Shown here piece after piece: positions 4,309-55,265 of a stretch of 64,000 nt of DNA. The DNA is from Limnanthes douglasii subsp. nivea. Lineage: Eukaryota; Streptophyta; Magnoliopsida; Brassicales; Limnanthaceae. The number at the start of each line of letters is the position of its first letter. The stretch's first letter is position 1. Location: NCBI GenBank assembly GCA_036936605.1, contig JAUPFV010000004.1:295038009-295102008 (forward strand). The letters run 5' to 3'. The position numbers were made by a program, and so were the translations under genes. Below the pieces are notes generated by a model. That model worked only from the letters and a program-made list of their open reading frames with translations, was not told the origin of the DNA and did no database searches.

Positions 4309-7300
4309 ATGGATTCAACGCGTGAGAAGGTTGATGAAGAGCGTGGAACTCCAAACATGGTACTTGTTCTAACCAATCTTTCGAAAAAAAAAGTTTCCAT
4401 TTTGGTAGATTTTCCATTTTTAGAAAGTTGGACTCGAACTCCTCCGCCGGGGGTAGCATCCTCAACTGGCGGGGTTGAAGAACATTCAACTTTGAGGATG
4501 AATGTTCCCCGCCGGTCGAGGTCATTCCCAACCGTCTGTAGAATCGAGTACCACCCGCAGGTGTTAGTACTAGTGTCCTGGCGGGGTTATAGTATCGTCA
4601 CCGGTCGGGCCGAATACGTAGAAATATTTACTAATTGGTTGAAAATTGTTAGGTTTAACCCCGCCCGTTGAGTAATTTTCAACTGGTGGTCCCCTGGCGT
4701 TTTGAGTATTTTCAACCGCCGGGGTGTTTATTACACCGCCGGAGAGTAGGTCTCCAACCGTCGGTTGGTTTTGTATAACCCCGCCGGTATGGTATTAACC
4801 GGCGGGGGAAGGCGTTAATTAATATTATTTTTGGAACCCTAACACAATATCCTGTTTTTTTTACGTGGGCCGATTATTTAAAGAGTGAAAATTATAAGGA
4901 GGAATATTTAAAGGAGGAAGATTTTAAGGCCGATGATTTTAGTTCGTACATGGTGAAGGAGGAGGAAACAACGGTGTCTTGCTCGGTTGATTATAGCCAT
5001 TTGTTCGACACCAAATGTCACTACTCTCAAGTGGAGTTGATCGAATGGGTGAAGCAGACCGCAACAGATAACGGGTTTGTGGTAATATTACGACGATGCG
5101 ATAGACTTGATAGAATAACTCCAAGAATTGAGTTTGTGTGCGAAAGATCTGAAGTTTACAAAAAAATTGGTTGATCCGAAGCATCTAAAGAGGAAGTCAA
5201 CCGACACGAAAAAATGCGGATGCCCTTTCACCCTAAAAGAAAAGAAGTTGGGCGATGATTTATGGGGTTTAGAGGTCGAATGCGGCATTCACAATCACGA
5301 CACTACATCGTACAAAGAAGGTCATTCTTACTTGGGACGATTTAACAATGAAGAGATGGATTTCGTAGTTACTTCTATGAAAATGAGATTCCATCATCAG
5401 GACATTCTCGGTGGGGTTAAGAAGTTGAACCCCAAGAATTATTCCTCAATGCGCACCGTCTACAACGCTCAACTAAAACATCGGAAGCTCGAGAAAGGTG
5501 GTCGGTCGCAATTGCAATACTTGTTGGGCGAATTTAAGCGGCTAAACTACTACGAATTTCATAGAAAGTACGTAGACGGAAGTGATGCCATAGGAGAGCT
5601 TTTCTTCGTGCACCCGGTTAGTTTGGATTTGTTACGCACATTTCCAAACGTGATTGAAATGGATAACACGTACAAGGTGATCAAATACGAGATGCCATTG
5701 TACGAGGTCGTCAGAGCCACTTGTACGGGGAAGACTTTCTACATCGGATTCGCGTTCATGTCGAGGGAAAAATTCGAGAGCTACAAATGGGTGTTAGAGT
5801 GCTTACATTCTTTGATGGTAACTCACCCCATCGAATTACCATCCATCATTTTAACGGATAGAGACTTGGCGCTTGTGAATGCGGTGGAGGATGTGTTCCC
5901 CAATGCAACACACATGTTGTGTCAATGGCACATCAACATGAACGTCCTATGGAAAACAAAAAAGATCATAAAGGATACGAAAGTGTCCAACGCATTCTTG
6001 AAAGTGTGGAATGAAATGATGTTGGCTGAAACGGAAATAGCGTTCAACGACTACCGAGCTGAATTGCACCGTGACTTCAAAGAGTATCCGCAAGCAATTG
6101 AATATACGAAACGTTGGTTAGGGCCTTACGGTGACAAAATTGTGATGTGGAGAACCAACAAGTGGATACATTTTGGTAACCAAACCACAAACCGCGTGGA
6201 GAGCGCTCATTCGACCCTCAAACATTTCATCGGTAGGAGCAAAGGTAACTTTGAATCTTTTTGGTTGAAGTTGCATACCTTGATAGAATTGCAGCACGGG
6301 GACATAAAGGGTTAATTCGAAAAGAGCTGCATGTTAGCCCTACACAAGTTTGCAAACAAGGTGTACGACAAACTCAAAACCAACGTCTCACACTATGCCT
6401 TGGATATTTTGTCCGGCGAAGTAGATTGTGCTCGCAACATGACAACCGCGGGTTGTATGCCTTTCGGTTGCTCAATACAAAGCACACATGGTATCCCTTG
6501 CGCGCACGATATCTACGAGTTTGTTTCCAAAGGGTTATCGGTGTCGCTAGAGTTGTTTAACGAACATTGGAAGAGGTTGGAAATTTTAGTCCGTACAAAC
6601 CTCACGACTATGGAACAACTAAAAGCGAAGCTTGACAAACTACTATGTGATGTCATGGAATCCAAAGATGAAGCGCGAATAGAGCACGTCTACAAAAAAT
6701 GGTTTGTCGTCGTCCATCCTAGAGCCATTGGTGAAGCCAAAAGCGCGCGGTCGTCCACCTAACAAGTGCAAGCTTTCTATTGTCGTTGATGATACATCCA
6801 CTAAACGCGACAAAAGTGGGCACGAGTATGTGCTTGAATCAGAAAATGCTAGTTATCCTTCATTTACGGATGAATTCAAATCTCCTCCGGTAACGTCAAC
6901 TAAAGGGAAAACAATTCCATGGAATAAAATTAGTTCTGATGGTGCTGCCGCTCGTAAACAAGGTAGTATGATATCAACCCAAGCAAGTGGAACAATCCTT
7001 TCTAGTGGAACGGTTGGTTGTAGGTCAAGCTCAACGTTACCGGATAAGGCAAGTTTTGTAGACCCTAAAGGATACCTAAGACAATTCCCCATCTACTTTA
7101 GACCATTTGTGGAGTCAATTAATGACGTAAAAGCCGATGGCCATTATGGGTACTGCTCCATAGCGTATGCGTTAAGCAGGCAACAAGATGGGTGAAGGTT
7201 GATAAGGGATTCCCTTTACAACGAGCTGATGGATTATGCATCCGTGTATGTTAAAATATTTACAAGCATGGAGGAACTGATTTATGGTGCGGAGTGTGTA

Positions 7301-7759
7301 AAGTGCTCTGGTAACGTGGATACTAAAGCCCATTGGATGTCCATACCCGAGATGGGGGTGGCAATTGCATCTGCGTTTAACTACGTACTCCATTTTGTTG
7401 GAGTGTACCGAAATATGGACGTCGGCTTCACTTTTCTCCCCCTAAGAGGTGCACCGCCTCCAATGTCAAATCGGGTGGAAATCGAATTGGGTTGGATCAA
7501 GTCCAACCATTTCGTTAATGTAAGTATTTTTTGACCTTCACGATTAGTTTTAACATTAAGACATTTATTTTATCGACGTTTCATTTTGTAGCTTGGGATT
7601 AGGGTGGACGCCCCTTGTGCAAGGATACATCCATGTTGCCTGAAGTTGCGTTCACTTGAAGCAGAGGGTTGGGCATTGCCGATCGTCTCTCGTTGCAGAA
7701 GATATCAAGAACTAAAAAATGGTTGCCCCGATGTAACAGATTTATCCGATTTTGCTTGA
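4309..7759 (+). pseudogene. MULE-1 transposase (FAR1-DDE-SWIM-OTU), broken
   Basis: This would cut and join MULE-1 ends in the nucleus. Inferred exon 1 is 4309-4359. Intron 1 is 4360-4898, phase 0, and holds a palindrome array. The main exon runs to a GTAAGT at about 7520, and a last exon ends at TGA 7757-7759. Seen in order: FAR1-type zinc finger with TKKCGCPF and HNHD; D in MDNTYK and in TDRDLA; CQWHIN; SWIM with GIPCAH; an AT-hook-like ARGRPP; an OTU-like domain. Damage: a frameshift in an A7 run near 5163, TAA at about 6313, a frameshift near 6740 and TGA near 7195. The OTU active-site DGxC reads DGHY. The gene structure follows the intact MULE-2 homologue. Confidence 0.85.
4435..4815. 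repeat. MULE-1 palindrome array in transposase intron 1
   Basis: Repeated blocks of CCCCGCCGGT-type arms face ACCGGCGGGG-type arms across 10-20 bp AT-rich loops, so each block can fold into a hairpin. At least six arm copies are seen, moderately diverged. The surrounding sequence is AT-rich, so the GC content jumps sharply. The array lies wholly inside the inferred first intron of the transposase. Confidence 0.8.
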
Positions 7760-7989: not shown

Positions 7990-8450
7990 TGAAACTTTCA
8001 TGTCTATCCCCGCCGGTTCGTATTTTTCATACCGGCGGGTGGAATAATAAACCGCCGGTTTCGAATTTTGATACCAGCGGGGACATGGGTGGGCATTAAG
8101 GAGAAAATGAACATTTTTTATCTTAGTCAACCGTCGGGTGGATATTTCATACTGGCGGTTAAAATACTCAACCGCCGGTGTAAAAACTTCCCCGACGGTT
8201 GAGAATTTTGATATCGCTGGTATATATGGGTACAAATTAAGGCAAAATGAAAATTAGTTTCATGTTAGTCAACCGCTGGTTCTATATTTTCACACCGGCG
8301 GTTGAGATTTTTGAGACAGGCGGTTGAATGGCACCCTTATGAATAATTTAGTTTAGGTTTCTGTCGGTTGAGTATTTGTCAACCGGCGGTTCACAAGGTC
8401 CCCGGCAGTATACAATTTTCGAACCGACGGGGTGGGCTATAGATTAAAAA
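7990..8450. repeat. MULE-1 palindrome array 3' of the transposase
   Basis: A second CCGCCGG array with the same arms as in intron 1, such as CCCCGCCGGTTCG facing CATACCGGCGGG near 8008-8040. About ten arm copies are spaced 20-60 bases apart with some decay. It lies between the converging ends of the transposase (+) and the small gene at 8593-9060 (-). This matches the position of the 100-bp array in MULE-2 (44811-45240). Confidence 0.8.
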
Positions 8451-12081: not shown

Positions 12082-12451
12082 GGCATAACCATAACCTCCA
12101 CATATGCTACCATATCCTAGTGATATAGTCGTAGACTGTCATGTCCCAGACCTTTACCGCCTCCTCTTTTATTCTTCGCGGCATGAACAACAACTTTGTG
12201 AGTGGTTGGACGAAAAGGTACCGTCTCTTGATTTCGCCACGGTTGCGCACAATGACACTTCTAGTTTGTAAACAACCGTAGTTGTAGTACATATGACATA
12301 CGACCCTTTCAAAAAATGCATCACTCATATCTCCACCCAACTCGGCGCGAAAATCCTTCACTGCTACAAGCATATAGTCGTCTTCATTAGGCGTAAACTC
12401 CATTTTTTTTTAGTGTTTGGTGGATGTCATGTTACTTGATAATACTTGCAT

Positions 12452-12564: not shown

Positions 12565-13035
12565 AGTGGTTCCCCGCCGGGTTACACATTTTCTACCGCC
12601 GGGGTGGAAGGAACATTTCCCTTGGAATTGCAATGATTAATTGGTCTAGAACCCCGCCGGGTCAGAATTTTTCACCTGTCGGTTGAAACACTACACTGGC
12701 GGGATTAAAACATCCCCGACGGTTTACATTTTTCATACCGGTGGGGTGAGTGCAAACAAGAGACTTCCAGTTTGTATGGAATGTTGGTCCAGGGCCCCGC
12801 TTGTCCCCAAATGTCATACCTTCGGTTGACTATGTTCCCGGCGGTTGACTAATATCCAACCGCCGCGGTGGAAGATTAGAAACTCATATTTTTCCACTCG
12901 TCATCAACCGACGGCTGACATATTTTAAATCGCCGGGGTTGTGTCCAACCAGGGGGTGGAATTTGTTCAACCGCCGGGGTTGTGTTCAACCGGGGGGTGG
13001 AATTTGTTCCACCGCCGGGTTGGAAGGAATTCCAA
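12565..13035. repeat. MULE-1 palindrome array between small gene and PMD gene
   Basis: A third CCGCCGG array with arms such as ACCCCGCCGGGT, CCGGCGG and AACCGCCGGGG. Near 12960-13020 a roughly 43-bp piece containing CAACCGCCGGGGTTGTGT is tandemly repeated. It is GC-rich against an AT-rich background, and many arms can pair. Confidence 0.75.
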
Positions 13036-13238: not shown

Positions 13239-14537
13239 CTAAAACAACATGCAAATGAAGAATGCGACTACCATAAACAGAAGCCACGGACTAGTGATCT
13301 CCAACACCTTCTTTGCGAACGACATGAGCTCGTCAGGGGAATTGTCCAATGGCCAAACACGATTAATCGTGTTGATCGCATCAACCACGGACCTCTCGGT
13401 AAGAATACAAGGAGTGTTGTTAAACCAATTGTACCTCTTCACGTACTCCTTGTACTGTGGGGATGACGTGTGGCTACTCCCTTCCAAGGGCCTCGAGTAC
13501 CTATCGATAATGTAAAGGTGTTCCCTCCACTTCGCCCAGTGCCTCCCATGCAGCGCATAACGGAGATTGTCTCCTCTTTGCAAACCGGTTCTAGCCAAAA
13601 GGGGGTCCATCGGCTTTTCCTGGATCCAACCAAACTGCCTCATCACTCGGTCCGGGTGATATGCTTCGCTTACTAGCATAAGGCGAATAAGGTTCTAATA
13701 CACCCCTATTGCATGCTCAGGCTACACTTCACGTACATCCTCATAAGGTCGGAATATTACCTACAAAAAAGCAATTACGTATATAATCATATAATTAATA
13801 GTCAAATAATAATATACGTAAACAACAATACTTACTTCTGTCTTTTCTTGCGCCGTGAGGATGTCACGGTCGTAAGGCTTCCCACGAGCTACTAATCCAG
13901 CGATCCTCTTGGGCAACCACGCTAGCATTTTTAGATCAGTCAGGCTATAACCGTTGTTAACCGCCGCCCGGAAGATGGGAAAATGGTCGTAGATCCAATA
14001 TTTCATCAGGGCCGAAAACCCGACCAAGCTCTTCAAGGAGTGCTTCGATCCGCCTCCCAAGCTTTTGTACAACCACACGAGTGCACATGTACCCCATGCA
14101 TACTTACGGAGGTCAGACAAATCCTCGAGGTAGTGGAGAAAATCTAACTGGATGTTCTTCTGGCTCGTGTTTGCGAAGATGGTACACCCAAGGAAGAACA
14201 TGATGTATGCCCTACTAGCTGATTTCTTCATCTCCGTAGTGAGGTCGGAATTGGAATCCCAATACTCCTCCCCGGAGAACGTCGTCTGTAGCCATCGAAG
14301 GACAAAATCACTCCCGCCATGCGCCTCAATATCCTCCCGCACATCATCCGCCGAAACTCCCAACAAATCAGTATAACGTGCATATGTCGCACCTATATCC
14401 TCTGTCCTAAAGGTGTCGATAATTCTCCTCTCGACTGGGAGGCCAGTGATGATATACACATCATCTAGCGTGATGGTCATCTCCCCGAATGCAAACTGGA
14501 AGGTGTTGGTCTCTTGGTGTCACCTCTCTATGAACAC

Positions 14538-17369: not shown

Positions 17370-17612
17370 CCCCCGTCGGTTGAACTATTTTCACCCGGCG
17401 AGGAAATATATTTAATTTCAAAATTCAATTTCGACCCCGTCGGGTGAACAATTTTCAACCGGCGGGGATTTAATATTAATTTAAAATCTAATTTCGACCC
17501 CGCCGGGTCAATCCAGCCACAACTGCGGGGCTTAAGAACATGAACAAATCTAGGTTGGTAACCCCCCGAGTCAACCCGTTTACACCCGACAGGGATGAAG
17601 AACTTTCTGGAC
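17370..17612. repeat. MULE-1 palindrome array at the PMD leader (copy 1)
   Basis: CCCCGTCGGTTGA / TCACCCGGCGAGG-type and related arms upstream of the first recognisable PMD exon. The last 110 bases (about 17500-17612) are also the core of the MITE at 20663-20855. The position matches the palindromes in the PMD leader intron of MULE-2. Confidence 0.75.
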
Positions 17613-31931: not shown

Positions 31932-32178
31932 AGACAAAGCTATTTCCTCCATCTTATTTTTTATTTCCTCTATCTTTCAAACTTTCAAAAACACTAGGGA
32001 CTTGCTTTCACCAAATTACCCTTATTTTTATTTCAAATTTATAACTAGATGTCATTTATCTAATAGATAGTCTTATATGAAAAAACACAGCATTAACCTA
32101 ACTTTAATCCAAAATATATGATTCTACCTCTAAAATTAACCCTAAAACAACGAACTTCAATTTTATTGAAGATTAATC

Positions 32179-32244
32179 ATGGAAAATGAAGAAACCCAAA
32201 CAAAGCCGGAGAACAGAACTCAGTCGACAAACAAGATAATTTAA
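32179..32244 (+). pseudogene. Possible remnant of a MULE transposase first exon
   Basis: A 21-codon frame opening MENEETQTKPENR. The MULE-2 transposase exon 1 opens MDNEEMG and the MULE-1 exon opens MDSTREKVDEE. All three are acidic and are followed by a palindrome array. No splice donor at a matching place is certain, so the reading is tentative. Confidence 0.35.
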
Positions 32245-32391
32245 ACTTGTTTTTACGTTTTACAACTTCGTAGCTTGAAAATACCTATTTCGAAACTTTT
32301 TTTTTCAGCTAAACCCGATTTTTACAGTTCTGAAAGAAAAACAACTATTTCCGAACCGGGCATTAGGAATCAGGTGTAATTTAAAAAAAAA

Positions 32392-32600
32392 TGTGCATCT
32401 GATTCCGAGAGGGCCACTCGGAATCAGATGTCTTAAGTTTGAACCAAGTTGCAACTGATTCCGAGTGGCCCACTCGGAATCAATTGCAAGTTTTCAAAAA
32501 ATATGTGCAACTGATTCCGAGAGGGCCACTCGGAATCAGTTGCAAGTTTTCAAAAAAAATGTGCAACTGATTTCGAGAGGGCCACTCGAAATCAGTTGCA
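32392..32600. repeat. MULE-4 palindrome array, 56-57 bp period
   Basis: Four near-perfect hairpins at 32394, 32451, 32507 and 32563. Each has arms AACTGATTCCGAG and CTCGGAATCAGTT around a GGGCCA loop, separated by AAGTTTTCAAAAAAATGTGC linkers. In the fourth unit both arms carry the same compensating change (TTTCGAG / CTCGAAA), so pairing is kept. Confidence 0.92.
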
Positions 32601-33801
32601 AACTTTATGTCGCGTTAAAAACATCATCCGATAAACATGCTCGATGCATTTAAAAAATTGCAGAAAACTTTTCCAAACCAAACCCTAATCGAAAATGAAA
32701 AAGCAAAGAAAAATGAAGAAATCATACATTTTCCAAGCCTTTTATCTTCTCTCTTCGAATGGTTTTGTGAAGAATGGGTTTTCTTCACCAAGCTTCTCTC
32801 TTTTGTGAAGAACGGATTTTCTTCTCCAAGCTTTTTCTCTCTCTTCAATTTGTAAGTACTGGTTTTGTTTTTTAAGAAAAAATGGGTATGAGGGCAAATG
32901 TGTATTTTCCTTTATGGAGGAAATAACAACATGGTTTTTTTTCAAATTATGGGGGAAATAATAATTTTGATGGGGAAATAGCTTTGGCCAAAATCTATTT
33001 GAGGCTAGACTTATTAGTAAATTGTACGTTTTTTAACCCAATTAGTATAAACCCCTTTAAAATTATAATATAAAACTTCTGTGTATTCATCAATTTTACT
33101 TAAACCCATTACTAGTTTTAGGTTATTTTTAATTAATTTTGGTAACATTATTTATTTAATTAAAAATATTTATTTCGGTTGTCAGTTTTTGTACCAGATT
33201 TATAAATCTAGAATAAATACATAGGTTTCGACATGAACGCTTATTTTTTTCTAATAATCTTTTAAGTCTACATAGGATAGCCGAGTTGATGTAGTACGAC
33301 ATGCTTGTTACCAAATGTTATGAGTTTGAATCCCTTTACAAACGTTTTTTGGGTTGTATCGGTTCCTGGTTCACCTTCTACGATTGGTTTACATACTGTT
33401 GTGTCACGTTGAAGGTTTATCCTGCACACTCGTTGTCTAGCGGTTGCGGTTTCTTTACGAAAAAAATCAAATCAAATTTTGTGTCAAGTTAAAGGTTTAC
33501 TACCCTGCACACTCGTTAAATAGCGGTTGCGGTTTCTTTTCAAAAAAAAAGTTTCAAATCAAATTTATATTATAAGGTTTGTATGTTGATTTTTTTTGTT
33601 TTTAAAAAAAATCACAACTACTGCATGTGCACTATGCCTGTGAGATAATTTTTTGAATCTATTTGGAACTATTCTCTGTAATTATTGAACTTAAATAGGT
33701 GAGGTCCAATTATTATATTATGCGCTGGTTTTGACTGCTATTTTGAAATAACACATACTAACATACTAGGTCAAATATACAATTAATTAAAACAATTATT
33801 C

Positions 33802-39720: not shown

Positions 39721-40127
39721 CTTGTTAATAAAAAAAAGTGTAAAGCAAAATTTCTATCTTTATCGGACGGATATCCCTCGAGAAATGAGAAATAAAATTC
39801 AAATTGGATCTCTCTAGATCGCCACTCATAATTCATAAAGCTCAAATCCCTCTCTCCTCTATCTGTCCGTATCTGTAAAAAAACGTTTTCCAACGGCACC
39901 GCGTCCGGCCAGGATTTCATTCGATCATGTTGGAATTGTTCGACGACGGTTTTACCAATTTTGCGAATAAGTTGTTTATAATTGAGCCGGAGAAAGTAGA
40001 TTCGAAGGCAGGTCGCCGTCAAATATGGATCTTGTTTTCTGCAAGGCCAATGTATTGAGGAGGAGTGGTCGGTTGGAAGAGGCTAAAAAGATTGAGAGGT
40101 ATAGTTTTTTGTTTTGCTATTTGTTTT
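39721..40127 (+). repeat. Most complete copy of repeat H, left of MULE-2
   Basis: Joins both parts seen separately at 3815-3933 and 28914-29140. An ATG at 39927 opens L-E-L-F-D-D-G-F-T-N-F and the frame stays open to about 40050. Another frame, from an ATG at about 40025, reads through K-A-N-V-L-R-R and L-E-E-A-K-K-I-E to an AG/GTATAG that could be a splice donor. A possible acceptor lies at 49098 beyond MULE-2. H may be part of a decayed low-copy host gene, with MULE-2 inside its intron. The product was not recognised. Confidence 0.5.
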
Positions 40128-40162
40128 GGGCCAGGCTAGAAATAATACACATTTTTATAGAT
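40128..40162 (+). repeat. MULE-2 left terminal inverted repeat
   Basis: 35 bases, with 32 of 35 matching the complement of the right end. The mismatches cluster at positions 16-18. Confidence 0.95.
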
Positions 40163-40609
40163 TTAGAACCGCTAGATCTTATACCTAATTGATAGATCTC
40201 GCACCTAAATTTTGACCATTTTACCCTTTTCAGAAAACCTAGCTATAAAAGCGTTTGATAGATCTCTCACCACTTTTTTCCTCTCTTTCTCCTTCTCTCT
40301 CTAGAAACCTCTTAAGACCCATTTCTGAAATTCGACTTTTTGAAGAATCTAAACCGAAGAAAACGTAAAGGTAAACGATACGAACATCATGGTGTAATTT
40401 TTTTTTGATTTCATTCGGTATAAACTGTCGAATCTAGGTTTTTAGGTTTTGTGGTTTCGATTTCAAAAGTTGGATTTTTGTATGATTTTAGGTGTTGTTT
40501 TGTTAGATTAGTGTTATATTGTTGTTAGTACTGCTAGGATCTACGTTTTGGTGCTTGGTTTTGTTAGAAATGAGGCTGTTTTGGGGTTGTAGGCATTAGG
40601 GTTCGACAT
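40163..40609 (+). promoter_or_regulatory. PMD promoter and leader exon of MULE-2
   Basis: CTATAAAAG lies near 40244. A CTCTCTTTCTCC leader follows, and a probable 5' UTR exon ends at a GTAAAC donor at 40371. The matching acceptor TTTACAG is at 40859-40865, just before the ATG, so the leader intron contains the palindromes at 40610-40795. Confidence 0.55.
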
Positions 40610-40795
40610 TGCTGTCAAGGCCTCGTCGCAGGCCGTTCGTGCGATGAAGAGGGGTCTTCGTCGCACGGCCAAAATGAGACGAGGCCTTGACCCAGTCTCA
40701 TTTTGGGCCTGCGACGAGGCCCAAATGAGGTCTCATTTTGGGCCTGCGACGAGGCCCATATGAGGTCTCATTTTGGGCCTGCGACCAGGCCCAAA
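40610..40795. repeat. MULE-2 palindromes in PMD leader intron
   Basis: Several GTCTCATTTTGGGCCTGCGA arms face GGCCCAAAATGAGAC-type arms. A second pair, TTCGTGCGA and TCGTCGCACGG, is also present. The same arms occur at 44811-45240 and 48405-48660. They account for spurious open frames in the region. Confidence 0.85.
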
Positions 40796-40866
40796 TTGAT
40801 TTTTTTTTTTTATATTCCTTTTGTTTTTTCATTCTAATTCATATTTTTTTGCGTTGTATTTACAGG

Positions 40867-42857
40867 ATGCCTCGATTCAAGATTAAAGCAAAAAATCCGT
40901 TCAAAAAAATTAGGGCCGATGCCGAGGCGGCAGCAGCAGCGGATAGAGCGCGGGCCGAGGCCGAGGAGGCTGCTTCGAGCGAGGAACATGTTCCCGGTAC
41001 ACGTAGTATACGACGTCTCCGTCGTGGCGGTGATTATATTCCTACTCCTGCTGATGGTACCACAGGGGCAGCTTCTACGTCGCATCCCCCTGACGAGGAG
41101 TACGATGACGATGTAGATGCACCGCAGTATATGGAGGGTGATGCATCTCATGTACCGGACTATACGGAGGACGATGCACCTCACGCGCCAGAGGCAGCAT
41201 TCCACTCATCTGAGGGTGAGGATGTTGGTTTTCATTCCGTGCTGTCGCATGTTCCGGCACTTTACCCGGATTACACCCTGCACGAGGCTTATAGCGTCTA
41301 TCACGGAGATGTAAGTGTTACACCTTTATACTGTTTTATAATTTTCTTACGTGTTCTGTACACATGTTTTTAATTATTATTGTTTTACGAATTTACATAT
41401 TTTATACATATTGCAGGATAGGGTCACTCTCCGATGCTTCGCTATGTACGACAGTCTCCGGAGATGGGACATTACAAAGCAGAGCAGGGTACGGGCCAGG
41501 GTGATGGAGACTATATTCGGTCCACTCGTCGATGCACTCACCCGCTGGCATACGAACCTCCATTTGGTGGAGGCATTCTTAGAGCGGTGGCATGAGGAGA
41601 CTTCTTCTTTCCATTTCTCGTTCGGGGAGATGACAGTCACATTGGACGATGTCCACGTCATCACTGGACTACCGGTTGTAGGTAGGTCCTTCACAGCTAT
41701 ACCCTTTGACGATGATGTTGAGAGGCTTGCTACTTATGCTGCCATGCTAGGTGTGCGGCAATCGGAGCTTAGTAAAAACCTTAGGAATGCTGGTAGTGTG
41801 AAGCTAGGGTGGCTGCATAGTACTTTTAGTAGTTCTCAGTATAGTGATAGGAGGATCACTGATGCCCAGGTAGATCATGCCACCCGTGCCTACATACTAT
41901 ATCTGTTAGGTACCACTATTTGCGCGAACAAAACCGGGAACAGCATTCCATTAGATTACCTCCAGTTTGTGAACCAGTACCAGAGTTTGCATATGTACAA
42001 CTGGGGCCAGTTGGTTTTAGCGCAGCTGTACCACGCCCTTAGTCAGGGATCTCTCCATGGTACGGGAGGCATTTGCGGGTTTCTAGCGTTGCTGGAGTCG
42101 TGGATTTTTGCACACTTTGTTCAGCTCCGAGCTCCACTTTTTCCGGGTTACGACGTATCCATGCCCCATATGTGCCGACATGCGCCGCGGAAGATTGGTG
42201 TCTCCCATGAGGTCCGCATGCAGATGAGACACGTACTGGCGACTTGCACTGAGGCAGATGTAAGTCATTTTCTTTCAATTTAATTATTTTAATTATAAGT
42301 ACTTTTACTAATATAAATGGGCTAAATTATTCTATTTACAGGTCCTGTTCCTCCCGTTCACTGGTTTACGAGACCCTTTTCCGTTCCAGCAGATCAGTTA
42401 TGTTGAGTTGAACCTTGCTTCGTTCGACGTGGTTGCGGCGTACTACCCAGACCGTGTCATTCGACAGATGGGGTATGTACAGTTGATTCCTAAGAATATA
42501 CGCCCTCCTAAGTCGAAAAAAGTAGGGAAGAAGTGGGTCACAGACTTAAAGTGGGACGATCACTTGTGGCAGAATTGGGAAAGCCACGTGTTCACTCCTT
42601 TTAGCACCGAGTACCGTGGTAGTGGACCTAGTGCTGACCCGATGTACTACATTTGGGCGAGGAAAAGGCTATGGTACATCGTTAGTTGTCCTGCGCCGGA
42701 GAGAGGTCCTCGGGTGGAGCCGGACGGTGGTGCTGTTTATTCAGGATACGAGCAGATTGCTGCGTTTGCTCCTACGCTACCTACTTTGGATCACCCTGAT
42801 CTTCTAGAGTCCGCCCTCATGATGTGTAGGATCGCCGAGAGGTACCGACGGCATTGA
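40867..42857 (+). CDS. PMD (plant mobile domain) protein of MULE-2, 600 aa
   Basis: Spliced from 40867-41310, 41417-42259 and 42342-42857. The introns have GTAAGT donors and TTGCAG/TTACAG acceptors, and all junctions are phase 0. The N terminus starts MPRFKIKAKNPFKKIR, then an Ala/Arg/Glu-rich segment and an acidic stretch. The PMD occupies about residues 150-560, with FGEMTVTLDDVHVITGLPV, YILYLLGTTICANK, a Y-N-W-G-Q block and YYPDRVIRQMG. The fold is shared with MAIN/MAIL1-type proteins and with transposon-borne PMDs. The start follows an acceptor and is supported by the homologous MULE-1 gene. No stops interrupt it. The molecular role in the element is unknown. Confidence 0.9.
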
Positions 42858-42902
42858 TGATTATTCTCAGAAAAACTTTGTTAGCTTTTTGGACATCAAC
42901 AC

Positions 42903-43098
42903 TATATTGTGGTAATCGGTAAATTGTTTGACTGCTTTTAATTTTTGTAATCGGTTAACTCTATGAATGCTTTTAATTTTGGTAATCGGTAAATTGTATG
43001 ACTGCTTTTAATTTTTGTATTTTAATTTATTGTATGACTGCTTTTAATTTATTTTAATCGGTTTGATTACTTTGAATGATATACACACTCAAAATTAT
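42903..43098. repeat. Short repeats after PMD stop
   Basis: GACTGCTTTTAATTTTTGTA and GTAATCGGTAAATTGTATGA recur about four times at 50-60 base spacing. Probably in the PMD 3' UTR. Confidence 0.65.
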
Positions 43099-43290
43099 AA
43101 TGAAACAGAAACACACATTCGTACTTGAAATGAAACTCACACTGAAACAGAAATACACACTCATACTTAAAATGAAACTCACACTGAAACAGAAATACAC
43201 ACTCATACTTAAATTGAAACTCACACTCAAACAGAAATACAAACTCATACTTAAATTGAAACTCACACTCAAACAGAAATACACACGCAA
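43099..43290. repeat. 42-bp tandem repeat between converging genes
   Basis: About 4.5 units with core GAAACAGAAATACACACTCA; starts at about 43141, 43183 and 43225. It lies exactly between the 3' ends of the PMD gene and small gene A. Confidence 0.9.
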
Positions 43291-43292
43291 AA

Positions 43293-43709
43293 TTATCTAT
43301 CTGGCCAGTTCCATTTCATCAACCTCCTTTCTTCTTTCGCATCTTTGTAGTCACGGATTTCCTGTATCTGGATGTCATAAATGTCAGAGCGGACCGCATC
43401 CAGCTGGCCCTCTGTTATATAATCCGTCGCTTGACAGTTGAACCGGTTACACGCAATACGACGTTCCAATTCATTGAGGTCAGAAACTAGATGTCGACGG
43501 GTTTTGACCAAGACCGACCACCTAGCTCGCACTTCATCAACACACCTTGAAATGTAAGGCGGCTGAACACCATCTCTTCCGCACAGGAAGTACATCTGGC
43601 ATACTAATGCCTCGCAATACCTTTTACCACCCTCTGGAATGTGCTTATTACCAACTTCAACTGATGCCCTCATCAGATACTGATCTTCCAACTCAGTCCA
43701 TGAACCCAT
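43293..43709 (-). CDS. Small SANT/Myb-like protein A of MULE-2 (138 aa)
   Basis: Single exon. Starts M-G-S-W-T-E-L-E-D with the W and E-D of SANT-like N termini. The middle has EALVCQMYF and the later part has T-D-Y-I-T, aligning with the D-A-F-F-x-R-V-L-C-x-M-Y-Y skeleton of protein B and the MULE-1 proteins. It ends in a basic K-W-N-W-P segment. It is divergently transcribed from protein B across 449 bases with a TATAAATAG box near 43763-43770 (minus). Probably nuclear and DNA- or transposase-associated; this is inferred from family shape only. Confidence 0.8.
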   Translation of the reverse strand: MGSWTELEDQYLMRASVEVGNKHIPEGGKRYCEALVCQMYFLCGRDGVQPPYISRCVDEVRARWSVLVKTRRHLVSDLNELERRIACNRFNCQATDYITEGQLDAVRSDIYDIQIQEIRDYKDAKEERRLMKWNWPDR

Positions 43710-44158
43710 TTTTCAACTAGATTTATCAACTAATGATGAAGTTTCAATGTGCATGAAGCTTCTATTTATAGACGGACCCGAAAACTCCCTCTCATTTTCA
43801 AAATTCAAAAAATCTCTCTCGTTCTCGAACATTCTAATAATCCCGCTCAATTGTAAAATATCAAAACTCCCTCTCATTTTCAAAATTCAAAAACTCCCTC
43901 TCATTTTCAAAATTCAAAAACTCCCTCTCATTTTCAAAATTCAAAAACTCCCTCTCGTCACAGGAAATTCAAAAAATCCCGCTCACATTCTAAACTCCCT
44001 CTCATTTTCAAAATTGAAAAACTCCCTCTCATTTTAGGAATTCTAAACTCCCTCTCATTCTCTAAAATAAAGTCCCACCTAAATTGTCTTCACTATATAA
44101 AGGGACTACAAGTCCGATTACATTCATACCATCTTCTCAAACTTAGAAAGTTCAACAA
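43710..44158. promoter_or_regulatory. Bidirectional promoter with 27-bp AACTCCC repeats
   Basis: Divergent genes A and B share this spacer. A TATA box for A is near 43763-43770 and one for B (TATATAAAG) is near 44094-44102. Between them (about 43783-44065) eight or more copies of AAACTCCCTCTCATTTTCAA repeat, strictly 27 bases apart in the central part. Variants read AATCCCGCTCA. MULE-1 small-gene promoters have AACTCCC or ACTCCCGCC boxes in similar positions. Confidence 0.75.
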
Positions 44159-44536
44159 ATGGAGTTTACTCCCCATGAAGACTACCATTTGCTCTTGGCG
44201 GCAAGACTTACCCGCCGAGAGATGGGGGAAGATACTAGTGATGCTTTTTTTGATCGGGTGCTTTGTAAGATGTACTACGGTTACGGCCGTTTACAAACAG
44301 AAGGGCTCCTCGTGCGGAACCGTGACCAAATCAAGCGGAGGTATATTTTTTGCCAACCGCTCCAGCGTTTGTTGTTTCAGCCGTATAAAATTAAGCAAGA
44401 AGCGGCCGCCGTCTTCAACATGACAGTGGTAGACTACATCAGTAGGGATATGGTTGCGTATCTTCAGGATAGGATTGCGGAAAGGGAGGAAGGGGTTCAT
44501 TCTGACGACAACTTGGGTTACGACTTCGATGATTGA
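44159..44536 (+). CDS. Small SANT/Myb-like protein B of MULE-2 (125 aa)
   Basis: Single exon with the ATG 57 bases after the TATATAAAG box. It starts MEFTPHED and has SDAFFDRVLCKMYYGYG, LVRNRDQIKRRY, an M-T-V-V-D-Y-I-S block and an acidic tail. It is about 60 percent identical by eye over 95 residues to the broken MULE-1 gene at 12403. This sequence constraint across two otherwise diverged elements implies selection for function. A DNA-binding helper role is plausible. No published family name is known to me. Confidence 0.85.
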   Translation: MEFTPHEDYHLLLAARLTRREMGEDTSDAFFDRVLCKMYYGYGRLQTEGLLVRNRDQIKRRYIFCQPLQRLLFQPYKIKQEAAAVFNMTVVDYISRDMVAYLQDRIAEREEGVHSDDNLGYDFDD

Positions 44537-44810
44537 GCATTTGGTTGTTGCCATTTCTGTGTTTAATTATTTTCTTATGTTTCGTTAAGTTAAAAGTCAT
44601 AACTTAATGATTTCCTCTTCTTGCAACCACTTCAATTGTACTTGTTGTTTTCTTCTATTTCTTCATAATGTACTAGTTGTTTTCCTGAACTTCTTCAAAA
44701 TGTACTTGTTGTTTTCTCCCATATACTGGTATTATATTCCAAACAAATGTCCAAAATGATAAAGTAGGACTATTTTCTGTCTCAAAAACTGAGCCCCAAA
44801 TATCTCCTCC
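44537..44810. other. 3' flank of gene B
   Basis: Three loose copies of TGTACTTGTTGTTTTCTTC/ATTTCTTCA, about 42 bases apart. No gene. Confidence 0.5.
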
Positions 44811-45240
44811 CGTCGCAGGCCCAAAATGAGACGAGGCCCAAAGGGCGTCTCATTTTGGGCCTGCGACAGAAGCCTTCTGTCCAAGATAATGGGCCAATTT
44901 TTTGGTCACACGTCGCAGGCCCAATTTGCGACACGGCCCATAAGGTGTCGCATTTTGGGCCTGCGACACAAGGCTTCTGTCCAAAATAATGGGCCATTAT
45001 TTTGGTCTACCGTCGCAGGCCCAATTTGCGACACGGCCCATAAGGTGTCGCATTTTGGGCCTGCGACACAAGGCTTCTGTCCAAAATAATGGGCCATTAT
45101 TTTGGTCTACCGTCGCAGGCCCAATTTGCGACACGGCCCATAAGGTGTCGCATTTTGGGCCTGCGACACAAGGCTTCTGTCCAAAATAATGGGCCATTAT
45201 TTTGGTCTACCGTCGCAGGCCCATATTGCGACCATGCCCA
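44811..45240. repeat. MULE-2 palindrome array, exact 100-bp period
   Basis: CGTCGCAGGCCC starts at 44811, 44911, 45011, 45111 and 45211 (last unit partial). Each unit holds a long hairpin, for example arms GCAGGCCCAAAATGAGAC and GTCTCATTTTGGGCCTGC in unit 1, plus an A-T-rich AATAATGGGCCATTATT palindrome. Units 2-4 are nearly identical and share a changed arm pair (ATTTGCGACAC / GTGTCGCATTTT). Gene B points into the array from the left, and the transposase 3' end lies to the right. Confidence 0.97.
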
Positions 45241-45498
45241 AAAATGATACGTGTTTCCAATGAAAATTACGTTCAACTTGAAATCGTCAAACTAATTTGT
45301 GAAACTTCAAAAAACACCGTGAACTATATTATATCAAAATTACATCAAAATTACATCAAAAGTACACCATCGTACTTCAAAATTACATGACAAGTACATC
45401 AAAAGTACATCAAAATTACATATGTTACAGTTACATATGTTACAGTAGATGTTAGGAAAACTAATAAACTAAAAGTACAAATGTTGCACGAAAACATT
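45241..45498. repeat. Short TACATCAAAA repeats at transposase 3' end
   Basis: AATTACATCAAAAGTACATC units repeat irregularly at 45335-45420, and ATATGTTACAGTT repeats at 45419-45448. Probably the transposase 3' UTR. Confidence 0.55.
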
Positions 45499-48400
45499 TC
45501 AAACATTTGAAACGTCCTCGTCTCTAGTCAAATCTGTGACATGGGGTTTTTCGTTCAAGTTGATTTTCCTTGCGGGCATTATCTGTGTAAATTTGTTCAA
45601 CCGCCGGTAGTATGGATGCGCCCATTGATTCGCTTCTTCGGTTGCGTAAGCGGCCCAACACGGGTATAATGGAGGCAACGGTCCATCGGGTGGAGTAGTA
45701 ATCTGCAAGGAAATTGCGTAAACGAATGCATTAGTAGTGATAGCGTAAGAAATTTTGATTGGAAACGAAATAGACTTACATTAACAAAGTGACATCCATG
45801 CACGAAAGCTATCCCAACTTCTATGATCGTCGAATTGTTGACGGGTGGCTTTCCACGTATTGGTAGATACGTTAACGAGGCTGCGAGCGATACATGGTAT
45901 ACCATGCATTGATACCTTGTCGCGATGACCAGTCCAATGTCCGGAAATGTCATCCAATAGTGGCTACTAGGATTCGGCTTGAAGTAATCTAATCTTTGTA
46001 TCAAATCGTCAAACACCTTCTCCGAACCATATACATCCAACCAACATGCACGGTTGTCCCGCAACTCCTTCAACAAATCGCGTCTAACATCAGCCCATCT
46101 ATCTTCGTCGTTGTATATTGAATGCGCTACGGAACGATATCCGCATTGTCCGTCCGGAAGAACGTCGACTAACTTTGAAATGTAAGTGTGTAGAAAGGTC
46201 GGGATGCAATCCGGATACAATGTTAACTTCCCATCCTTAACAATTTTCTTAGGCCTTCCAACCTTCTTTTTTGCTAATGGAGGTTTGGGTGGAACGATGG
46301 GAGCCACTTTGGATGCGGCCGTGCTCCCTAACGTGTTTACGGGTGTACTACCTACCGAGTTAGCCGGAGTACTAGCACTAGCGGTTTGTTCAATGGGATA
46401 TTCCCACGAACTAGGGTTCCGTTTAGTCGATTTATCAACGCCTCCCTTTGGTCTACCCTTAGCTCTAACTGCTTCTTTAGGATCTTGAATATGACTTGTC
46501 TCGGGCATCAAAATTTGCATTACTTTATTGATAATGTGGTCTTGTTGGTCGGGGCGGAAACTACGAATGGAGTTGTCAATTAAGGAAATCTTTTTTTGCA
46601 ATTCCTCTTCGCGAGAGGTAGGATCCCTGTGCACAATATCTAATCTTTTCCAAAAAATATCCACATCTTCTAAAGGGATGCACCTACCTTCTCTAGCTAT
46701 AAAGGCAATTTCACATGCACAAGGTAAACCATGAGTTTTCCTAAGGAAACAACCCCCACATGCCACCCGATCTACTCCTATATTCCGAGCACGTACAATA
46801 GCAACTGTCAGTATCTTTAGCCCCGCATGTGACACATGACCTTTAAGATTTTTGGTCAAAACACCATCGAAGCCGGGAATTGATCTAAACTTACTTCGCT
46901 CGAATGATTCGACGATACCCGCATGCTGCTTCGTTAACAAGTTATGAACTTTTTCCCAAAAAGTCTCAAAGTTGCATTGATTTGTCCCAAGATATTTTTT
47001 TAGGGACGAGTGTGCACCCTCCGCCCTACATAGTACAAGTAATAAATTATCAACATACTTGAACTTTAATAAAATAACTCAACATAAAGTAGGATAGAAG
47101 GACTAACCTATTTGTAGTTGTTTGGCCATAATGCTTAATAGTGTTCGTTTTGTACGCAAGGAACTTGTCAGCATATTTTGTTATCCACGAGTCCATGACG
47201 TACGCAAAGCACTCCGGTTTAGATGCGAACATCTCCTTAAGTGTATCGAGGTTCTTTTGGTAACTCTCAAACGTGTTCGCCTCCGCAGCGTAACTGTAAA
47301 ATTCAACAAATTGTTTCGCTACCACATCATCGTGCAATATCTTCCGAACCGCCCCAAGGATGTTCTTACTAATGTGCCACGTGCATAACAAATGGTGCGT
47401 TCCGGGAAAAATTCTATCAACCGCACGCATGAGAGCTAACTCCCGATCGGTAACAATGATGGATGGAAATGCGCACACGCTATCCATCATCAAACCACGA
47501 AGAGTTTCCAGAGCCCATACGTAGTTTCCAATCTTCTCTCCGCTCATAAACACGTACGCGACGGTAAATGTGATGGAAGTGGACGTAAAACCGACAACCT
47601 CTAACAACGGCATCTTATACCTAGTCGTCTTGTACGTACAATCCATGAATAACACGTTCGGGAATGTACGTAATAAGTCTATGCTAGTAGGATGTGCGAA
47701 GAAAAAGTCAGTGATCACCTTTGTATCATCTTTCAAACGCTCCCACGTCGAGTATCCATTCTCCTTCAACTTCGTCAATAGATATTGCATTTGGGTTTGC
47801 CCCCCGTGTTCAGCGTCCCGATGTTTTTGGCGGACATTGTAGATTGCACGCATGTTCGAAATGTTTTCGGGATATTGGTGCTTCAAACCACTATATATCT
47901 CCCTAGGGCGCGAACCAAGGTGAGACAAACTACGAACTAGTTCCTCTTCGTCAAGTTTTAGCCTACAAGCGCGGGAATGACCGTCTAGGCGAACGTAGGG
48001 TTCATGATTGTGAGTACCGTTTATCACCTCCAAACGCCATTTCATGGCTAGTACGTCGATCGGATGACCTTTTAGCGCAAACGGACAATTGCATTTCTTC
48101 GTCGATGTCTTCCTTTTTTTCAAAGTGTCCGGCTTTGCCTTTGATACGTATACACCGTATCGCTCGCAAACGTACTCTAACCTAGGAGTCCTTCCCCATT
48201 TCCCACTATCGTAGAGTTTTCTTATAGTGACAAACTTGATCTTCTTTGATTCAATCTCCACGAAAGCATCTAATTCGTCTTTAGTGAATAATCTATCCGT
48301 GGTGAATATTTTACTGTAATCGGCATCCATAAATGGAGGCTGGGCAGGTTCCTCCTGCAAAAGATACAATCAAAAAGTATGAGTTCATATATACAAGTTG

Positions 48401-48756
48401 CAGTAGCAGGCCCAAAATGAGACATGCTATGATACCCGTCGCAGGCCCAAAATGAGACGGATACAAAAGGGCGTCTCATTTTGGGCCTGCGACAGAGGCT
48501 CTCTGGCCAAAAAATATGGGCCATAAATTTTGCCTTCCGTCGCAGGCCCAAAATGAGACGGTCAGCTAGAACCGTCGCATTTTGGGCCTGCGACGGTCGC
48601 GCGCTGTTCGTGCGACGACATTACTGTTCATCGCACGAACAGCGTGCGACAGCCCTGAAATTTAAAAACCTCGTTTTCGGTCGTTACCTCCATCCGGTAA
48701 GCTTCCTCCTCCTTCAGTAAGTCTTCCAGAGAAATGCCCATCTCTTCGTTGTCCAT
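45499..48756 (-). CDS. MULE-2 transposase with OTU domain, 921 aa, intact
   Basis: Spliced from 48756-48688, 48354-47108, 47025-45780 and 45702-45499 with GT-AG introns and consistent phases. FAR1/WRKY-type zinc finger about residues 48-140 (KKCNCPF, NGTHNHE). MULE DDE core with Asp about 261 in FMDCTYK and Asp about 326 in VTDRE, then LLCTWHI. SWIM-like finger about 528-546, where HGLPCAC has Cys in place of the usual His. AT-hook-like GRP motifs lie near 629 and 696. The OTU-like cysteine protease domain spans about 728-860 with PDGQCGYRS (Cys about 733) and GCHFVNV (His about 851). It should bind the inverted ends and move the element in the nucleus. The OTU part suggests ubiquitin or SUMO-type processing; the substrate is unknown. 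Confidence 0.92.
48405..48660. repeat. MULE-2 palindromes in transposase intron 1
   Basis: Two units of the 100-bp type (starts near 48437 and 48538) with arms GCAGGCCCAAAATGAGAC / GTCTCATTTTGGGCCTGC. Next to them is a perfect-looking hairpin with arms GCGCTGTTCGTGCGACGA / TCATCGCACGAACAGCG. All lie inside the 333-base intron 48355-48687. Confidence 0.92.
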
Positions 48757-49007
48757 AGATACTCCGATTTAAGATTTTTCGAAATGGGTTTTATGGGTTT
48801 AGTCGAAAAAAGCTAATTTTTTCGAATTAATGAGTTTAGATTAGTAGATGTTACTACAAAGCTTGTAGATCTAGTGTAATATCGGATAGATTAAGTGTTT
48901 CGGCCGATTTGGAGACAAAATGGCACAAATGTCAAAATCTAGAGAGAGGAAGGGCAATTTAGGAATTTCAACTTTCAGTTTCAAAAATTAAGAGAGTAGG
49001 GTGAGAG

Positions 49008-49042
49008 ATCTATAAAAATGTGTAACTTTTCTAGCCTGGCCC
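49008..49042 (-). repeat. MULE-2 right terminal inverted repeat
   Basis: Complement of the left end with three mismatches; the 9-bp target duplication follows directly. Confidence 0.95.
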
Positions 49043-49170
49043 ATTTGTTTTTGGAGGAATATAAATTCTTGTGGAGCCATCAAGAATTTATATTCAGTCT
49101 GCAGAGGAGTGAAGAAATATTAAGACGAGTTTATGGACAAAAATATTTTAAAACCACATTGGTATGTCCA

Positions 49171-49242
49171 GGGCATTTGGTCTAGTGGTATGATTCTCGC
49201 TTAGGGTGCGAGAGGTCCCGAGTTCAATTCTCGGAATGCCCC
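49171..49242 (+). tRNA. tRNA-Pro (AGG)
   Basis: 72 bases that fold as a tRNA. The acceptor stem pairs GGGCATT with AATGCCC, and a C discriminator follows. The D arm has GGTCTAGTGGTA, an A-box. The anticodon stem CTCGC / GCGAG encloses TTAGGGT with anticodon AGG. The T arm has GGTCCCGAGTTCAATTCTCGG, a B-box. A TTTT run follows about 12 bases downstream as a Pol III stop. No intron and no mismatch were seen. It lies 128 bases after MULE-2. Confidence 0.97.
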
Positions 49243-50439
49243 TGTATTTGCTTTTGCACATATATATATTTTGCATTTTAGCATGTGGCTCTATGGATTC
49301 CCAGCTGATTGAGTGGGTTACAAATTACAATGAACTCAAAGAGAAGAGCAATGCGAAAATTGCAGGTTTGTATGAGTAAAGGTTAATTATTGACTTGCGG
49401 CGCACATAATTGAGAAGATTGATAATGATACACAGAGAGAGGAGTAAGAGAGACAAGAAATCGAGGTGGCACAGGAGAAAGTGGAGTTAGACAACATGGA
49501 ACAGATTTGTAGCGAGGTAAATCGGATTGAAAACGAATACACAGAAAATCCGTCTGCGAAGTGTTTTGCGACAAGTCAGATATGGAAGCCTCTTTGATTC
49601 TTTAGCAGGCACTTGCCCCTAATGAGCGCAGACACACACTCAGCCGAAGGATCGTTACACATTGGCTTATCTCCCACCGGGTTATAGTAGCTATAAAGAA
49701 GATATTCTTGAGGTCGATGAATATTATATAGCATTATTTTACTGATTTTAGACTGCTCCGGACCACTCTCACTCGGTCTCTCATAATATATATTTGACGT
49801 ATTTGTAGAAGAATGACCTTATAGCCTCCATCTTGTGAATCCCCGATCATCCTAGTACATCGTTATACGAGCTTCATTTATCGACCATGAACAAAGTTTT
49901 AACGTCTTCTTGATCTGTTTGCTTCTTACTCCTACAAGAAGTTCAATTTTACTCAAACATTTGTGGATCGGTTTGGAAATCAAACTATTTTTTTTGTCTC
50001 GAATTCGGTTTGTTTTCGTCTATTTATTAATACATGAATGACTCTTTAATTGAATAGTACAAGTGTTGTTATATTTTCATACTATTTATAAGTACGAGTG
50101 TTATAATTGTTTGATAAATAATTTGTTATATAGTTATTATATAGTAATTTAAAGGTAGGATAAGGTTGTTATAGTTTTATTATTATACTTTGATTATTAT
50201 TATATGGGTTAATTAAAAATACTACAAGTGTTGTTATATTTTGACCATTACTTACTAGTGATACAATTATTGTAGAAATAGTTGATTATAGTATAACTTG
50301 TTATAGTTTAATTATTTTTTAAAGTTATAAAAAATAATTTTTACTGCATATAGTCTTTCATAGTTTATATTCTTGCGAGTCATAAGTTGTACAAATGTTC
50401 TCAAAGTAATATACTTATAATATAATATCTATTACAAAT
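49243..50439 (+). other. Decayed sequence with coding-like traces
   Basis: At 49290-49600, a frame broken by a few stops reads like a coiled-coil protein: M-D-S-Q-L-I-E-W-V-T-N-Y-N-E-L-K-E-K-S, and later V-A-Q-E-K-V-E-L-D-N-M-E-Q. It may be an old gene fragment. From 49750 on the region is AT-rich without signal. Confidence 0.35.
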
Positions 50440-51990: not shown

Positions 51991-52238
51991 AAAACTATAA
52001 TAACATAGGCCCCAATTTTTTTAACATAGACCCCCCAATTTACCCCTTTCAATGAGGTTCTGCACCTCTTTTTTCAAATCTATGCAGTCATGGGTATCAT
52101 GCCCAATGCCATTATGATATTTACATAAACGGGTACTCTGGTTTTCTCTGGGAGACTGTAATGCAGCTGGCTTTCTAAAGTGCACTTCGTTTTTAGTTTT
52201 GTCTATATTGTAGCCACACTTTCTCCCAACTCAGCAAA

Positions 52239-53171: not shown

Positions 53172-53573
53172 TCATCACTGTTGGAAAAATTGACTCTTCA
53201 AGCTCTGCATCATTAGAGGAGTTGCTGGAGGATTCCAAAGTGGAATTCTCTACACGTTTTGATTGATGCGTTTTCTTGGAACTGAGATGAGTCTTCAGGG
53301 ACTGCTTGTTCTCACCATGATTATCAGTATGGTGTAGCCCTGACGCACCAGGTTGTTCTTTAACTCATTTTTTACATGTTTTGACGCCCTCAAAACCTCA
53401 GTTTCAGCTCTTAATTGATCTCGCTCCTCAACAATGTACTCATTATTTTATTTTACTCCTTCCACCTCTGGAGGTGGAGTATTTAGTCCATACAGATCCA
53501 TCCGAATTGGTTGTTGTTACTGGTTTTGAATTTGTGATTCAGGCATCGTCGCCTCCCACTATGGTCGCCAATT

Positions 53574-55207: not shown

Positions 55208-55208
55208 G

Positions 55209-55226
55209 TGGCGCCGTCTGTGGGAA
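55209..55226 (+). promoter_or_regulatory. Primer binding site
   Basis: TGGCGCCGTCTGTGGGAA, one base after the LTR, identical to 10031-10048. Confidence 0.75.
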
Positions 55227-55265
55227 ACGAATATTGTTCTGACGACAATCCCTTCCTGGAAATAA

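Follow-up and report, generated by a model that had tools for sequence, protein, structure and literature searches.

Clade-specific, binding-site-like arrays in predicted first introns of the PMD and transposase genes of Mutator-like elements in Limnanthes douglasii

Arrays of short repeated motifs occupy the same two gene-relative intron positions in three clades of Mutator-like elements (MULEs) that have different motifs. This supports the explanation proposed here, in which the arrays would be cis-acting clusters of binding sites for a sequence-specific DNA-binding protein encoded by the element, most likely the PMD (plant mobile domain) protein. The sites lie in one intergenic region and in the predicted first intron of each of two genes, those for PMD and for the transposase. 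On the model of the VANC proteins of Arabidopsis VANDAL elements, the bound protein would protect these non-coding control regions from DNA methylation, and its own gene and the transposase gene would then stay expressed. We give the explanation as a whole a probability of about one half. Against it stands, among other points, the divergence of the transposase, which tracks the motif as well as that of PMD does. Its most secure part, judged from the spacing and conservation of the sites, is that the arrays are likely to be bound by some protein of the element.

Results

Elements and genes in the window

The window, the whole stretch of 64,000 nucleotides that was analysed, sits on a 298-Mb contig of the 1.78-Gb genome of Limnanthes douglasii subsp. 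nivea. Its features are listed in Table 1. The termini of MULE-2, GGGCCAGG, match and form clear ends in the TIR/TSD search, and a 9-bp TSD, ATTTGTTTT, flanks the element at 40119-40127 and 49043-49051. MULE-2 carries genes for PMD (+ strand), small protein X (-), small protein Y (+) and transposase (-). The PMD gene matches Pfam PMD at 8.1e-41 and 4.2e-08 and DUF1985 at 1.4e-3, and the transposase contains a FAR1-like stretch scoring below the Pfam cut-off. The best 96 of 27,365 genome candidates for the main transposase exon are all 97-100% identical in amino acid sequence, and in 86 of these 96 scored copies the matched stretch is free of stop codons. The MULE-2 family is young and abundant in the genome. 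Average dN/dS values, obtained from 14-16 diverged copies of the 17-19 that passed the coverage filter (20 fetched), were 0.17 and 0.21 for transposase, 0.25 for PMD (middle exon), 0.18 for Y and 0.94 for X. Purifying selection is acting on the transposase, PMD and Y, and is not evident for X. A 27-bp tandem array (AAAACTCCCTCTCATTTTCAAAATTCA) is also present at 43781-44068, between the divergent genes X and Y.

In MULE-1, as in MULE-2, a PMD gene adjoins a MULE transposase gene, which places both among the PMD-encoding MULEs. The PMD-side end of MULE-1 was not found in the TIR/TSD search. The MULE-1 interval includes an LTR-retrotransposon-related stretch (9615-12080), and LTR-retrotransposon sequence is also present at 54798-60924, with gag, RT and integrase matches at 55876-60924. 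A head-to-tail duplication of 7.56 kb (13357-20921 and 20918-28485, 99.95% identical) is either an artefact of assembly or of very recent origin. Near a second, SWIM-type MULE transposase at 19184-20179, about 190 bp at 20664-20855 are bounded by an inverted repeat (GGTCTGTTCGAAACCCCCCGCCGG) and by eye resemble part of the MULE-1 leader array. No stop-to-stop ORF of at least 100 amino acids was listed within MULE-4.

Table 1. Elements, genes and motif arrays in the window
Feature	Positions	Strand	Description or evidence
MULE-1 array, transposase intron 1	4444..4805		11 CCGCCGG-type sites, one mismatch allowed
MULE-1 transposase coding stretches	5119..7534	+	Pfam MULE (PF10551) 4.6e-27
MULE-1 array, transposase 3' side	8010..8430		14 CCGCCGG-type sites
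MULE-1 small protein Y	12107..12409	-	59% identical to MULE-2 Y
MULE-1 array between Y and PMD 3' end	12574..13018		13 CCGCCGG-type sites
MULE-1 PMD coding stretches	13239..14519	-	Pfam PMD 9e-32 and 1.1e-05
MULE-1 array, PMD leader side	17373..17612		5 clustered sites at 17373-17506
MULE-4, MULE-like element, 1,058 bp	31932..32989		TSD AAAATCTAT; TIR/TSD search
MULE-4 array	32366..32601		GATTCCGAG palindromes, 56-bp unit; sequence repeats and fold scan
MULE-2, complete Mutator-like element	40128..49042		TIR GGGCCAGGCTAGAAA; TIR/TSD search; near-identical genome copies
MULE-2 PMD gene, predicted 5' leader intron	40371..40865	+	GT at 40371, CAG ending 40865; splice sites by eye
MULE-2 array 1	40610..40796		GTCKCA-N9-TGMGAC units, 35-bp repeat; in predicted PMD leader intron
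MULE-2 PMD gene	40867..42857	+	Exons about 40867-41310, 41417-42259, 42342-42857
MULE-2 small protein X	43296..43709	-	138 aa; no relative in protein database search
MULE-2 small protein Y	44159..44536	+	125 aa; no relative in protein database search
MULE-2 array 2	44811..45240		About four 100-bp units with GTCKCA-N9-TGMGAC sites; between Y 3' end and transposase 3' end
MULE-2 transposase gene	45597..48756	-	Pfam MULE (PF10551) 3.3e-24; ends approximate
MULE-2 transposase, predicted intron 1	48355..48687	-	Read from sequence
MULE-2 array 3	48405..48660		GTCKCA-N9-TGMGAC sites; in predicted transposase intron 1

Motif arrays are element-specific

The first-pass annotation had reported seven arrays in the three elements, and all seven are present where it had placed them; a fourth array in MULE-1, at about 12574-13018, was missing from its list. 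The MULE-1 array on the PMD leader side is present again at 24932-25175 through the recent tandem duplication. The array of MULE-4, counted in that annotation as a third one, is real, but because it lies in a 1,058-bp element without long ORFs it is uninformative on gene-relative position. For this array, 40 genome places were scored of 995 candidates.

The motifs are specific to their elements, as had been claimed. CCGCCGG occurs 20 times in 3991-17700 versus twice in 26,578 other bases of the window (28501-40128 and 49051-64000, MULE-4 included), and in the same 26,578 bases GCAGGCCCA does not occur. Folding was scanned in 638 sliding segments of 200 nt, with 30 dinucleotide shuffles of each. 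The array of MULE-4 gave the strongest fold-back signal (z -17), followed by the three of MULE-2 (z -11 to -13), against a median of -0.3. The MULE-1 arrays gave z values of -4 to -9, only partly beyond those of some other repeats (for example, -5.4 at 29401 and -5.1 at 23201).

Array positions in other copies and clades

Twenty copies of the MULE-2 family were fetched, picked by similarity to the internal array. Reading of the alignments located the internal array in 20 of 20, a count that follows from this selection, the leader array in 19 and the transposase-intron array in 18. The leader array is missing from copy L017. The transposase-intron array is missing from L016 and L022, whose match to MULE-2 stops earlier (at 48375 and 47226, respectively). 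An internally deleted copy, L014, retains all three arrays.

Six MULE-1 relatives, L029-L033 and L035, show a transposase identity of 80-89%. They have PMD, Y and transposase genes together with arrays built on the CCGCCGG core. X was found in L030, L033 and partly in L032; Y is partial in L032, and the transposase is incomplete in L035. Three loci, L034, L035 and L036, were fetched among the 121 PMD matches listed. L034 represents a third clade, its transposase being 53% identical to that of MULE-1 and 42% to that of MULE-2, and its PMD 45% and 38%, respectively. The transposase frame of L034 is uninterrupted over 888 aa. Of its three arrays, the PMD intron and transposase intron 1 hold one each, and the third separates PMD from the small gene. 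When one mismatch was allowed, 25 of the 27 ACCATCGGT-type sites in the first 8 kb of the locus fell within these three blocks. Each block leans to a variant of its own: ACCGAGCGG in the leader, ACCATCGG in the middle and ACCGGTGG in the transposase intron. L036 comprises 1.8 kb of PMD leader, in which degenerate CCGCCGG-like sites can be made out by eye; its PMD shares about 52% identity with that of MULE-1. A TIR with a 9-bp TSD is present in L012, L013, L032 and MULE-4, as in MULE-2. The TIR/TSD search did not show such a pair for L029, L030, L031, L033, L034 or L035, the pair in L029 being of low complexity with one mismatch.

It had been proposed that sequence differs between elements while position is kept. 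The comparison with other copies, which could have overturned this proposal, leaves it standing: positions are kept across copies and clades. It holds for the PMD and transposase introns, in three clades and in most of the 20 MULE-2 copies, but not for the intergenic array, which shifts. A location at the transposase 3' side, given earlier as the common one, applies to MULE-2, and MULE-1 and L029 carry an additional array there; in 7 of 7 CCGCCGG-clade elements and in L034, however, the internal array occupies the stretch that separates the small genes from the 3' end of PMD.

Clusters of TTTCCCGC/TTTGGCGG-type sites, which we take to be a plant E2F-like consensus, lie near X/Y in L031 (3985-4826), L032 (4079-4860), L033 (3528-4873), L034 (3532-3576) and L035 (3379-4199). 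In MULE-2 the two such matches lie away from X and Y, and the eight in MULE-1 are scattered. The clusters suggest that expression may be linked to S phase.

Spacing, orientation and conservation of the sites

Gaps and orientations were counted in 24 clusters of at least four CCGCCGG-type sites from seven elements, with one mismatch allowed and sums made by hand. Neighbour gaps fell within 3 bp of a multiple of 21 in 218 of 258 cases, where about a third is expected by chance, and 113 of the 258 neighbouring sites (44%) were in the same orientation. Pair distances peaked at 21.0 bp with a value of 0.533 (826 pairs, 21 clusters, six elements), and random placement gave 0.070 +/- 0.019 in 200 draws. 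Among pairs spaced 7-39 bp, 154 of 160 lie at 19-24 bp. L034 has a period of 22.5 bp (0.573, 81 pairs; null 0.205 +/- 0.069, maximum 0.433, 300 draws), derived from two of its three arrays, the leader array having too few close sites to enter. The natural reading of the 21-bp lattice is two helical turns, which would place sites on roughly one face of the helix in either orientation. This lattice was not found in MULE-2, where the 35-bp repeat does not fit it, and the site grammar of MULE-2 is unlike that of the CCGCCGG clade.

Inverted pairing is strong in the MULE-2 and MULE-4 arrays and is not in most arrays of the CCGCCGG clade. PMD-leader arrays lean to alternating orientation (12 of 51 neighbours the same, seven elements), and some of them therefore appear palindromic: in L032, as in L033, none of nine neighbours agree in orientation, whereas MULE-1 has 3 of 4. 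The word palindrome, used for all arrays in the first-pass annotation, fits those of MULE-2, MULE-4 and some PMD leaders; the share of like-oriented neighbours shows that it does not fit the CCGCCGG clade in general. A better description is of clade-specific, regularly spaced, binding-site-like arrays, found in intergenic sequence and, in the PMD and transposase genes, in what is predicted to be the first intron.

In five elements, the PMD, X, Y and transposase sequences mapped by tblastn contain no exact CCGCCGG, whereas array blocks have 3.6-17.4 per kb; four of the five lack it in the Y-to-transposase spacer as well. In aligned blocks at two positions in five CCGCCGG-clade elements, identity is 0.85 and 0.83 in the cores versus 0.61 and 0.62 in the spacers, a difference somewhat inflated towards conservation because the cores were chosen by motif match. 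Between MULE-2 copies, identity is 86.6% in the internal array, 89.9%, 95.7% and 96.6% in other non-coding stretches and 95.8-98.0% in coding exons. The internal array is thus the most variable stretch tested, its sites nonetheless being retained; non-coding sequence at 45245-45540, with the value of 89.9%, is nearly as variable. Protein-binding sites are favoured by the 21-bp lattice that holds in either orientation, by cores more conserved than their spacers and by motifs particular to each clade; the lattice also argues against hairpin RNA and MITE insertions.

Which element protein might set the motif

MULE-1 and MULE-2, whose motifs are unrelated, are 59% identical in Y, about 37% in PMD and 41% in transposase. 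The X protein of MULE-2 shares 68% identity with that of L030 or L033. The Y identities were taken from a search with MULE-1 Y and a direct X/Y alignment. MULE-1 and L034 are 45% identical in PMD and 53% in transposase, and their motifs, CCGCCGG and CCATCGG, share CCnnCGG and have near-equal spacing; the single X/Y-like frame of L034 is 27-28% identical to X or Y. Across the three clades, motif similarity tracks both transposase and PMD similarity. The correlation is coarse, since L036, with a PMD 52% identical to that of MULE-1, still has CCGCCGG sites by eye.

The comparison suggests that the motif is probably set by PMD or the transposase, not by X or Y. The small proteins, offered earlier as possible array binders, are disfavoured because they are more conserved than PMD and transposase between clades with unrelated motifs. 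X and Y are 22% identical when aligned and look like diverged paralogues. By eye they resemble SANT/Myb-type proteins; Pfam gave nothing convincing for them, one match at E 0.013 being below cut-off. The predicted model of Y was poor (pLDDT 58) and gave no match at E 0.001.

Three clades are too few to separate PMD from transposase as the setter of the motif. PMD is favoured on account of its DUF1985 matches and because VANC is a known binder of such arrays, and we judge it to be the binder with about even confidence. DUF1985 matches were obtained for 16 of 29 PMD sequences at E values up to 0.05 (best 1.6e-06), all of the scores shown being below the Pfam cut-off (19.4 versus 35.1 bits for MULE-2 PMD; best 28.5). 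The resemblance of PMD to the DUF1985 domain of VANC is thus weak but recurrent. A predicted PMD model of medium confidence (pLDDT 69) had no PDB match at E 0.001. DUF1985 genes of the genome itself were considered as its own VANC and rejected, as only three weak matches were found among 150 scored candidates, none above cut-off.

Short tandem repeats were also observed in the N-terminal part of PMD, at 41117-41183 in MULE-2 and 939-999 in L035. They recall the tandem peptide repeats of VANC in the consulted part of PMC5735166.

Discussion

Alternative explanations

Binding by an element protein need not concern expression. The arrays could be subterminal transposase-binding sites used in transposition, similar to those of CACTA (En/Spm) or hAT elements. 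The outer arrays of MULE-2 lie about 480 and 380 bp from the element ends, transposase divergence parallels motif divergence, the internally deleted L014 keeps its three arrays, and in MULE-4, without long ORFs, an array is present between the terminal repeats. CACTA-type subterminal arrays abut the element ends, however, while MULE-2 and L032 have a large array in mid-element, more than 3 kb from either end, and L017 lacks the leader array altogether. We regard subterminal sites as unlikely. The sites could instead bind host transcription factors that drive the element genes from introns, since intronic enhancers are common, MULE-2 units contain GGCCCA, presumably the plant site II/TCP core, and CCGCCGG resembles what we take to be GCC-box-like sites. 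Yet within one host the three clades all have arrays with motifs unrelated among them, and host factors account poorly for turnover that follows the element proteins or for a spacing grammar found in two clades. Control by host factors therefore seems improbable.

Explanations that do not involve a DNA-binding protein fare worse. The strong palindromes of MULE-2 and MULE-4, and the location of two MULE-2 arrays in predicted introns, would suit a source of hairpin RNA, as suggested in the first-pass annotation, with the RNA feeding or blocking small-RNA silencing. In the CCGCCGG clade, however, pairing is not the conserved feature: 113 of 258 neighbours share an orientation, and a fixed core, not merely complementarity, is conserved at regular spacing. 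Mixed orientation and regular spacing count against hairpin RNA as a general explanation, and we consider it very unlikely here. Just as doubtful is a neutral origin, with slippage and fold-back replication generating tandem repeats. Such an origin would explain why array sequence changes fast, but not why sites of mixed orientation share a lattice, why cores are more conserved than spacers, why the tested coding stretches and the Y-to-transposase spacer of four of five elements have none, or why arrays recur in the same introns in three clades. Insertion of unrelated MITEs, for which MULE-4 could speak as a small element carrying such an array, is rejected as scarcely credible, because the arrays of one element have motifs in common and because copies and clades agree in array position.

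Significance

Binding of the arrays by PMD would bear on the molecular function of a domain whose members MAIN and MAIL1 matter for silencing. Each clade's array supplies a concrete candidate target for PMD, and the arrays of the other clades serve as the specificity control, so PMD binding is directly testable. That the function of the arrays is anti-silencing is a tentative proposal, drawn from the VANC parallel. If binding by PMD holds, sequence-specific anti-silencing would reach beyond VANDAL/VANC, and a family of host silencing proteins would be tied to what are likely its relatives in transposons. A broader and more speculative idea, which we think probably goes too far, is that PMD and DUF1985 (VANC) form one superfamily of transposon-made anti-silencing proteins with sequence specificity, and that docking arrays phased to the helix, evolving in concert with the element's PMD, are a general feature of PMD-MULEs. 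On this view a transposon anti-silencing factor would be among the relatives of MAIN and MAIL1, which act in host silencing.

Comparison with known systems

In CACTA (En/Spm) elements the subterminal repeats, which TnpA binds, present a short motif many times over, close to the element ends and in either orientation. The arrays described here likewise contain many copies of a short motif in both orientations, but they are intronic and mid-element and belong to another superfamily; MULE-2 has a MULE transposase, termini GGGCCAGG and a 9-bp TSD, which are not those of a CACTA element.

PMD-encoding MULEs have been described previously (PMC5418596, PMC6446971), and the elements here resemble them in combining a MULE transposase with PMD, often antisense. 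Here PMD is a separate gene and not a transposase fusion, and motif arrays are not described in the consulted parts of those papers. A literature search by titles and abstracts found no description of motif arrays in PMD-MULEs; Sasaki et al. 2022, which treats the co-evolution of anti-silencing in Mu-like elements, was outside its scope. According to the portions consulted, half of the members of the VANDAL group have 'PMD and/or DUF' (Dupeyron et al. 2019, PMC6446971), MULE-captured PMD has been speculated to serve anti-silencing (Ikeda et al. 2017, PMC5418596), and a 'DOWN' motif, CATGCAGTTT, is linked to host PMD proteins (PMC9899485).

The VANDAL/VANC anti-silencing system of Arabidopsis MULEs (Hosaka et al. 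2017, PMC5735166; Sasaki et al. 2023, PMC10398659) is described here from the sections consulted. VANC21 binds YAGTATTAY motifs in the VANC21 and VANB21 introns and upstream of VANA21, these motifs share one orientation, and VANC6 has other motifs (PMC5735166). The present elements differ in that PMD takes the place of a recognised DUF1985 (19.4 versus the 35.1-bit cut-off), short TIRs are clear whereas VANDAL TIRs are absent or degenerate, and sites are mixed or palindromic whereas VANDAL motifs have one orientation. They also have a 21-22.5-bp lattice in two clades, for which no counterpart in VANDAL motifs was found in those sections, and two extra small proteins; anti-silencing is proposed for them by analogy. 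The arrays look as though they function in the manner of VANDAL/VANC targets, but MULE-2 is not filed as a VANDAL element because its DUF1985 match is below cut-off, its TIRs are clear and its site orientation differs. The likenesses are that both systems are MULEs with a short element-specific motif repeated in introns (here predicted) and other non-coding regions, that the arrays change fast and the motif differs between related families, and that PMD bears a weak similarity to the DUF1985 domain of VANC. VANC6 motifs are also present in AT9TSD1, an unrelated element, and may be compared with the arrays here. Of the roles that had been suggested for the arrays, insulation from silencing, a putative one here, has the best biological parallel, namely VANDAL/VANC.
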